Assembly (NCBI GenBank): GCA_028681135.1
Contig: JAQUJC010000001.1
Location: 61,838 to 97,344 of the forward strand
Direction: 5' to 3'
Length of the DNA stretch: 35,507 nucleotides
Source of the DNA: Kiritimatiellia bacterium
Lineage (GTDB): Bacteria > Verrucomicrobiota > Kiritimatiellia > CAIQIC01 > Lenti-01
In this document: positions 10,089 to 31,465 of the stretch, piece by piece
Numbering within the stretch: position 1 is the stretch's first letter
Layout of the letters: every line of letters begins with the position of its first letter
Notes under the pieces: generated by a model
Seen by the model: only the letters and a program-made list of their open reading frames with translations
Database searches by the model: none
Told to the model about the DNA's origin: nothing
Position numbers and translations under genes: made by a program

Positions 10089-10406
10089 ACATTCGCAACC
10101 CATAATTCATTACCCACGGAAACGCCCCTCCCCAAGGATTTGGAGCTTGCCCGGAGAGCGGCCAAAGCCTGGAAGAAATTTCTCCAATACAACACAAACC
10201 GATGCCTGCGCCAGGCGAAACGGCTCTATGAAGCCGCGGAAGCGGAAGCCCGGTTGATCGGAGATCCCATCGCGGAAAAGCATTTCCGCAGCGAAGCCCA
10301 CCGGGTGTTTGAGTTCTGGCGTCTCAAGAACAATGCGTACATGCCCTTGTCTGACTACGAGTATTCACATCTTCGCCTACCTGCCTCATATAAAAAGGGG
10401 GGCTGA
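10089..10406 (+). pseudogene. Open frame without good start, possible gene remnant
   Basis: From the stop codon at 10086 a frame stays open to 10406 and encodes an Ala/Lys/Arg-rich, probably helical peptide (ELARRAAKAWKKFLQYN, then AKRLYEAAEAEARLIGDP). There is no ATG near the beginning; TTG 10140 is the only early alternative start and lacks a clear ribosome binding site. The composition looks coding-like but I recognise no family. It ends just before the metallophosphoesterase fragment, in a stretch of evident gene debris, so a 5'-truncated remnant is the best guess. Confidence 0.25.
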
Positions 10407-10428
10407 TACGAAACGCCCTTATGGAACG

Positions 10429-10569
10429 CTCATCGACCTCTGGATCCACGGCCACACCCACCACTGCGTGGACTATCAGATCGGCACCTGCCGCATTGTC
10501 AGCAACCAGCGCGGCTATGCCACCGAACTCGTTGCCGGCTTTCAACCGAACAAAACGATTACCATCTGA
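10429..10569 (+). pseudogene. C-terminal fragment of a calcineurin-like metallophosphoesterase
   Basis: The frame encodes LIDLWIHGHTHHCVDYQIG, then CRIVSNQRGYATE and a short tail to a stop codon. GHTH is the last metal-binding motif of the calcineurin-like phosphoesterase fold, and the following segment matches the end of those enzymes (usually a NPRGY-like motif; here NQRGY). The earlier motifs (DxH, GDxxD, GNHE) are absent upstream in any frame I examined. Only about 46 residues remain of a protein usually near 250, so this is a decayed gene. Confidence 0.75.
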
Positions 10570-10638
10570 ATCAACAGCATTTTAAAGGTGATGAATGATT
10601 CAGGCTAAGGCCATCGTCAAAACAGCCTTCGCAACCTT

Positions 10639-11001
10639 CTACCCTTCTCTGTGGAAATCTCTTAATCCTCGTACAGAGGCAACATCATTGGAAATAACAT
10701 CTTGCCACCCTGATTTGACCTCTGCTCTTGAATCAAATCTTTGTATGTATGGTTTGATATCAAGCAAAGGTGTACCATCCAATATATCAAGGTCTCTGAC
10801 ATGAAGAGTATTATTTTCAATTTTATCCAATCGGACGAGACTCATTCCAAAACTATTAGGACGATAGGGGGCACGCGTCGCAAAGATGCCATGTTTGTAT
10901 ATATCGGCATTAGGGGTTTGAAAACGGGTCAGTTTTTGCTGTGGTGCAAAATGATTGGCTGGGACTGAGTTTTCCACAGTATGGAAAATATTTTCACACA
11001 T
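10639..11001 (-). pseudogene. Truncated TrmO (tRNA t6A37 N6-methyltransferase) remnant
   Basis: The 120-residue frame contains the C-terminal half of the TrmO/TsaA family core: GIFATRAPYRPNSFGMSLVR, then LDILDGTPLLDIKPYI, both diagnostic. TrmO methylates N6-threonylcarbamoyladenosine at position 37 of tRNA-Thr. The N-terminal beta-barrel part, including the usual GxVxS...RQ entry and the ShIwvlyWfH motif, is missing. The first few codons of this frame (the ENS segment and before) are made from the palindromic repeats at 10970-11019, so the ATG is fortuitous. The gene appears cut at the repeats. Residual expression of a partial protein cannot be excluded. Confidence 0.75.
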
Positions 11002-11019
11002 TTTCCACGCTATGGAAAA
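10970..11019. repeat. Pair of palindromes TTTTCCA-N5-TGGAAAA
   Basis: Two near-identical 19-base palindromes: TTTTCCACAGTATGGAAAA at 10970-10988 and TTTTCCACGCTATGGAAAA at 11001-11019. Only the central bases differ, and the copies are 31 bases apart start to start. The truncated TrmO frame begins inside them. They could be termini or scars of a small mobile palindromic element, or a paired protein-binding site. Confidence 0.7.
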
Positions 11020-11082: not shown

Positions 11083-11886
11083 CTAGAAAGGTACCAGGGT
11101 TTTTCGCCGCTGGCGGAATTCGGCGCGGTGGGTATAGCCTGCGGCGCGGGCCAGGGCGATGGCCTCCTCGAAATAGCGGCCGATCTGACTCGGGTCGTGG
11201 GCATCGGACCCGAAAGTGATGGGGATGTCGCGCTCCTTCATCATGCCCAGGATGAGCTGCGAGGGGTAGGCCTCGGCGGCGCCGTGGTCGGAACCACTGG
11301 TGTTGATTTCAATGGCCATGTCGGCTTCGGCGACGGCATCGAGGGCGGGCGGGACGATTTCCTTCAGCAGGGGCTCCGGGGCATGAATGCCGGCGCGTTT
11401 GACGACATCAAAATGCGCACAGACGTCATAGAGCCGGGTACGGGCCAGTTCCGTCATGCGGCGATAGTAGGTGCGGTTCATCTGTTCGATGAATGCCGGT
11501 GTGGCGGCGGGATCGTCCGGGGCGAGATTCCAGAAGGGGCCTGTATGCAGCGACCCGAGCACAATGTCGAAATCGGCTTGGGCCAGAACCGCTTGGATAT
11601 GGCCTTGGACCAGATCGAGTTGGTAGTCGGCTTCGATGCCCAGCAGAACCCGGCAGGGGGCGGCCTGCTGGGCTTCGCGGACCAATGCCAGATAGGTGGC
11701 AAAATCCGTGTCCGGCATGCGGATGGACGGCGTCGGATCGTTGGGAAAGGGGATATGCTCGGTACAGGCGATCTCGGCAATGCCGCGCGCCGCGGCGGCG
11801 TGGGCGTAGTCAAGCGGCGTTCCAGAGGCGTGGCGGCAGAGATACGTATGCGTATGGTAATCAGCAGGCAGAGGCAACGGTTTCAT
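11083..11886 (-). CDS. hisK: Histidinol-phosphatase, PHP family (HisK/HisJ type)
   Basis: Metal-dependent phosphatase expected to convert histidinol phosphate to histidinol in histidine synthesis. The 267-residue protein has the PHP metal motifs in order: DYHTHTYLCRHA (9-20), EHIPFP, GIEADY, GSLHTGPFW, DVCAHFDVVKR, EINTSG and FGSDAHDPSQIG. The ATG at 11886 puts the first motif 8 residues from the N-terminus, as is typical; an in-frame TTG 39 bases upstream would add a Pro/Gly-rich extension without support. The ribosome binding site is weak (GGTGGGG about 8 bases upstream). The gene stands alone, with no other his gene in the window. Other PHP phosphoesterases with the same fold cannot be fully excluded. 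Confidence 0.85.
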   Translation of the reverse strand: MKPLPLPADYHTHTYLCRHASGTPLDYAHAAAARGIAEIACTEHIPFPNDPTPSIRMPDTDFATYLALVREAQQAAPCRVLLGIEADYQLDLVQGHIQAVLAQADFDIVLGSLHTGPFWNLAPDDPAATPAFIEQMNRTYYRRMTELARTRLYDVCAHFDVVKRAGIHAPEPLLKEIVPPALDAVAEADMAIEINTSGSDHGAAEAYPSQLILGMMKERDIPITFGSDAHDPSQIGRYFEEAIALARAAGYTHRAEFRQRRKTLVPF

Positions 11887-11934
11887 AGGAGGCCCCACCG
11901 TACCCTCGAGCGGCGGGCCTGTCAACGAGGGCCG

Positions 11935-31389: not shown

Positions 31390-31465
31390 GCCGGCTTAGC
31401 TCAGTTGGCAGAGCAGCTGATTTGTAATCAGCAGGTCATCGGTTCGAGTCCGATCGCCGGCTCCA
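31390..31465 (+). tRNA. tRNA-Thr (anticodon UGU)
   Basis: The 76-base gene folds as a full cloverleaf with encoded CCA. The acceptor strand GCCGGCT pairs with CGCCGGC except at the last pair (T7 against C66). The anticodon stem GCTGA/TCAGC closes the loop TTTGTAA, giving anticodon TGT, read as threonine (ACA codons). The T arm is ATCGG-TTCGAGT-CCGAT. The following coiled-coil gene starts 24 bases downstream and may be cotranscribed. Confidence 0.96.

Follow-up and report, generated by a model that had tools for sequence, protein, structure and literature searches.

A truncated gene that ends beside a repeat poses a simple question: did the repeat break the gene? The question arises in a stretch of 35,507 nucleotides from a Kiritimatiellia bacterium (hereafter the window), in which a minus-strand TrmO-like frame loses its similarity next to two short palindromes. 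A sequence-only reading had described these as 19-base palindromes, 31 bases apart and differing only in the centre, and this description was confirmed by exact matches: TTTTCCACAGTATGGAAAA and TTTTCCACGCTATGGAAAA both fit the motif TTTTCCA-N(3-7)-TGGAAAA, lie 31 bases apart from start to start with 12 bases between them, and mismatch each other within the central five bases only (Table 1). When the window was scanned for the motif, this pair was the only match without mismatches, and five matches were found with up to three mismatches against 1.15 expected. As described below, the pair represents a two-unit array within a dispersed mosaic-repeat family of the class Kiritimatiellae.

Table 1. 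Features at the palindrome locus, in positions of the window
Feature	Position	Strand	Evidence or remark
TrmO_N remnant, N-terminally truncated; neighbour, outside the element	10639..11001	-	Pfam PF01980; alignment, GC 42%
Palindrome 1, TTTTCCA-CAGTA-TGGAAAA	10970..10988		exact match; one of 201 in genome
12-bp spacer, standard length (31-bp period)	10989..11000		gap counts, own-genome sample
Palindrome 2, TTTTCCA-CGCTA-TGGAAAA	11001..11019		exact match
hisJ/PHP-type gene, array on 3' side	11083..11925	-	63 bp from stop to array

The earlier reading had proposed looking for such palindromes elsewhere in the genome, and this search (3.05 Mb in 116 contigs) returned 201 matches to TTTTCCA-N(3-7)-TGGAAAA, against none for a reversed-pattern control; thus, the window pair is not private to its locus. 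The motif was present in 31 of the 38 genomes searched, the window's own genome included: in all 28 genomes of the order, at 3 to 721 copies each, and, outside the order but within the class, in 3 of 10 genomes, at 1–7 copies each. A stricter search for the 31-bp pair found it in all 12 sampled genomes of the order, in 10 of 85 from other parts of the class, and in none of 191 from the remainder of the phylum. At least 101 stretches with arrays were found among named genome contigs, nearly all of those listed from metagenome-assembled genomes (MAGs) of Kiritimatiellae, Lentisphaerae or Verrucomicrobia, with a few titled Opitutia, Spartobacteria, Bacteroidales or just bacterium. The MAGs titled Bacteroidales, Spartobacteria and Opitutia that carry the array (L112, L039, and SABN loci such as L055) are possibly misnamed or mixed. 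One genome (G012) holds only 14 palindromes, compared to 90–253 in the six other genomes of its genus, and its lineage may have lost whatever maintains them. Viral carriage of the arrays was rejected, as only one IMG/VR contig, of 18,851 bases, contains the 31-bp pair (L276:3427-3476), perhaps at the edge of a provirus. No account of these repeats in Kiritimatiellae turned up in a search of the open-licence PMC literature.

The truncation itself was claimed to fall exactly at the palindromes, and was suggested to have been caused by a mobile palindromic element or recombination site. The frame matches PF01980 with 89.5 bits over residues 22–90 (profile positions 47–116 of 116), so that 46 of the 116 profile positions are missing; Pfam places the start of similarity at residue 22 (base 10938), and BLASTP to a related locus, L014, places it at residue 17 (base 10953). 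The break is therefore nearby, but about 16–31 bp to the low-coordinate side of position 10970, the palindrome edge. A dispersed repeat family with gain and loss between close species does exist, as the mobile-element claim would have it, but its role as the cause of the truncation finds no support in relatives. In a genome of the same genus (G001), whose hisJ orthologue is 81% identical at the protein level (the window gene is presumably hisJ, to judge from its sequence), three palindromes begin 6 bases past the stop of that orthologue (L131:2350), and no TrmO_N match was found in this genome (82% complete), which indicates that the array at hisJ is independent of trmO. Palindromes were also missing from all seven TrmO_N loci examined in relatives. 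Insertion into trmO was rejected on the ground of the G001 array, and the truncation is best read as the decay of a foreign fragment beside the array, the GC content of the remnant (42%, against 60% for the window) being as expected of such a fragment. A different causal route, a deletion between the array and an intact trmO that once adjoined hisJ, strikes us as unlikely: the short distance between break and palindromes speaks for it, as does a search of the own genome (93.66% complete) for the intact trmO that the sequence-only reading had suggested looking for, in which no second TrmO_N was found, but the G001 array, the palindrome-free TrmO loci of relatives and its status as a single case speak against it. 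The trmO remnant is best taken as an unrelated, incidental decayed gene. The sole tRNA gene in the window is indeed one for tRNA-Thr (31390-31465), as had been noted, and its link with TrmO looks like a coincidence.

Of 15 hisJ loci examined, only those of the window's genome and G001 have palindromes; in two other genomes (G002 and G007), the hisJ gene is followed by a convergent frame, which we take to be membrane pyrophosphatase-like, and by no palindrome. Just beyond the hisJ array of G001 lie two small minus-strand frames (L131:2643-3282), which presumably resemble a toxin-antitoxin pair. In the window, positions 10140-10570 beside the low-GC trmO remnant form a degraded stretch of short frames resembling gene fragments, one of which we take to resemble the tail of a metallophosphoesterase.

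The repeat family follows a strict grammar. Arrays hold 2–8 palindromes, which alternate in ordered succession with a small set of linkers (3, 11 or 12 bp), giving centre distances of 22, 30 or 31 bp. In an own-genome sample of 230,692 bases (18 stretches and the window), all 48 gaps of up to 75 bp between neighbouring palindromes were of these lengths, as were 79 of 84 in G006, 50 of 54 in G009, and 284 of 307 in the 101 named loci listed. Two 3-bp spacers in a row (22-22 successions) were found once each in G006 and G009 and never in the own-genome or named samples. The spacings are close to two and three turns of the helix, an argument from three lengths only. Spacers keep their length and only a loose consensus in sequence, and the centres are lineage-specific: CGCTA and CACTG in the own genome (with CGCTA, the centre of palindrome 2, being commonest at 26 of 53 in the sample), ATCAT, ACCAT and ACGAT in G006 and G009, mostly ATCAT-like in G019, AACAT-like in G018, and AGGCT-like in G017 and G020. 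Few members have decayed, with 483, 95, 23 and 10 showing 0, 1, 2 and 3 arm mismatches, respectively, a count that leaves out the four-mismatch class because off-register matches contaminate it. In one array of seven or eight palindromes (L151:6454-6700), three spacers occur twice in the same order as a 93-bp tandem duplication, showing that arrays can grow in this manner. Conservation in the flanks beyond the arrays was limited to weak shared words and poly-C/G tracts. By an uncontrolled count, 5 of the 21 own-genome array clusters (L145, L148, L151, L159) have a run of ten C or G no more than 200 bp away.

Among the 166 clusters whose placement was examined, with gene contexts taken from a home-made gene caller whose start sites are rough, 29 lie inside called genes and 16 at sequence ends (unclassed). 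Intergenic clusters fall in co-directional, convergent and divergent gaps at 78/21/22, compared to 79.2/19.2/22.5 expected from the number of regions (p=0.91; p=0.28 when tested by gap length). This placement test revealed no bias towards 3' ends, no preference for downstream gaps and no avoidance of divergent ones. The intragenic clusters may include fused or spurious frames, since Pfam lends little support to coding sequence on each side of the array: of ten candidates searched, six had any family and four had none. Two cases, both carried in frame in the own genome, are secured by orthologues, namely a permease of the oppB type (L157) and a YfhO-like protein (L162). The oppB-type array occupies the same place in the own genome and in 13 of 15 aligned relatives from four families (15 of the 18 matching relatives, with G021, G022 and G023 left out for split matches), and its centres match each genome's own type. 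An exact palindrome is present in 11 of these relatives, G010 and G020 have one-mismatch copies only, and G003 and G004, which hold just 20 and 11 palindromes genome-wide, have none. For yfhO, compared in 13 relatives, exact palindromes were found in G001, G006, G008, G009 and G010, degenerate ones in G002, G004 and G005, and none at this place in G003, G007, G011, G018 and G019 (G018 being unaligned there), with G007 representing a clean short version without the array.

Comparison of close species separates the parts of the arrays. Between G006 and G009, which are about 96% identical, four shared arrays differ at 2 of 266 arm, 2 of 95 centre and 13 of 104 spacer positions, and their flanks at 225 of 6063 (Fisher test, arm against spacer p=2e-6, arm against flank p=0.006), in a comparison that conditions on G006 only and covers these four arrays. 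Across genus and family distances, the counts for the oppB and yfhO arrays are 15/294 for arms, 46/96 for spacers and 657/2511 for flanks, in a comparison where locating arrays by no more than three arm mismatches favours low arm divergence and the pairs are non-independent, coming from the same few loci; the faster divergence of spacers than flanks arises partly because much of the compared flank is coding. From these sequence comparisons, the arms are most likely kept by selection and the spacers kept only in length. The arrays also turn over. One in G009 (L214:1156-1311) has a clean empty site as its counterpart in G006 (L211 near 7127), another differs amid rearranged flanks, and three were kept in the automatic comparison, with that in yfhO being the fourth. 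In the one clean filled/empty pair, a single case tested for a MITE-like signature, the flank is C-rich and no target duplication was seen.

What, then, are these arrays? The usual explanations for dispersed palindromes in bacteria are REPs mobilised by RAYTs and RNA hairpins, and other relatives by architecture are known. The dRS3 elements of Neisseria combine a short palindrome of fixed arms and variable centre with very many copies, features shared by the Kiritimatiellae palindromes; their arms and architecture differ, we presume, and no phage link was seen for the Kiritimatiellae pair beyond the single IMG/VR contig. Noc sites and parS are palindromes found at many chromosomal positions, genes included, and mostly stand singly, in contrast to the phased arrays described here. 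A duplication of a ParB/Noc-type system was rejected, as the arrays and ParB_N copy number do not vary together. DnaA boxes were likewise rejected: the CACTG type contains TTTTCCACA, which we take to be close to the consensus of a DnaA box, and this sequence is missing from the ATGAT and AGGCT types. Rickettsia palindromic elements (RPEs) are also inserted in frame inside protein genes (PMC10969869), as in the oppB-type and YfhO-like genes of the own genome and its relatives; RPEs are about 150 bp long and carry a conserved peptide, whereas the present units are 19 bp long, stand in arrays and keep one place in oppB, and identity with RPEs was rejected by size and sequence. The closest likeness is to REP/BIME elements, which are described as short palindromes dispersed in hundreds of copies, joined into mosaic arrays by a limited set of standard linkers and placed largely between genes but occasionally within them, with REPs favoring the 3' ends of genes (PMC3733652 for both points; PMC6006769 for the first). 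The Kiritimatiellae family shares this organization, but its arms are short, AT-ended and constrained, it is order-wide whereas REPs are species-specific, and the GTAG/CGTC foot, the 3' preference and, in tested copies, a linked RAYT are all missing.

We favor, with about as much belief as doubt, the reading that the arrays are phased binding sites of a putative dimeric, sequence-specific DNA-binding protein. The sequence of the site is constrained and the spacer is constrained only in length; such conserved arms, together with length-only spacers near helical turns, the absence of transcript bias and of a REP tag, and lineage-specific centres, fit the sites of a dimeric protein. Identical arms and genome-specific centres could also result from gene conversion or re-insertion, and presence or absence between close species is equally expected of a mobile element. 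A wholly selfish element resembling a REP/BIME or a MITE, i.e., hairpins copied by a transposase, whose arms are alike through recency and homogenisation and not through binding in the host, is a serious contender, though we consider it the less probable one. Its dispersed, mosaic arrays with standard linkers, its clean gain or loss between G006 and G009, the copies in frame within genes, the tandem growth at L151 and the presence of Y1 transposase genes, found in 35 of the 38 genomes, would all suit it. By contrast, GTAG, GTGG and CGTC feet stand within 0–2 nt of only 2, 3 and 2 of 788 palindrome sides (187, 536 and 730 of 35700 random sides in the control), and identity with REPs was rejected on these tags and the missing 3' preference. 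A RAYT association was rejected as well: the own genome has 14 Y1_Tnp matches, of which five, on contigs with fully listed palindromes (C3, C15, C20 twice, C31), could be checked, and none of the five has a palindrome within 2 kb, and G005 carries 72 palindromes without any Y1_Tnp match. The lack of a target duplication in the one clean case and the fixed place of the oppB array across families also weigh against a selfish origin.

An RNA element, whose hairpins would act in transcripts on mRNA stability, termination or translation, appears improbable. Each palindrome could form a short RNA stem, and many arrays lie near stop codons, with a median distance of 46.5 bp in co-directional gaps, but the distance to starts is similar at 54 bp, and the distribution over gap types, which favours neither downstream nor convergent gaps and does not spare divergent ones, is not that of a transcript feature. 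Compensatory arm changes show no excess (1 of 23), the T and A tracts are placed opposite to what an intrinsic terminator requires, the centres look randomly oriented with respect to neighbouring genes in the few cases of the own-genome sample, and an Rfam search around the palindrome site returned no match.

Under the binding-site reading, each 19-bp palindrome would be the site of one dimer, and an array would line up several dimers along the same face of the helix; we infer the protein, its dimeric binding and the effect of bound arrays. The centres would shift between lineages with the cognate protein or by homogenisation. The arrays themselves, mostly intergenic but in some cases in frame within genes, grow by tandem duplication and are gained or lost. 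Such turnover and growth are consistent with repeat-like behaviour of the element as well, and are compatible with bound sites.

A broken gene beside a repeat invites a causal story, which comparison does not support at this locus. The family found instead lacks a RAYT-REP or RNA-hairpin signature, obeys a strict spacing grammar, extends across an order and is conserved site-specifically inside coding sequence, traits that make the choice between selfish and functional testable by identifying whatever binds the arrays. Tentatively, chromosome-wide, helically phased arrays in Kiritimatiellae, with a putative protein coevolving with the centres of hundreds of sites and with copies kept inside transporter genes, might represent a site network of a new type, acting in the nucleoid or in gene regulation.
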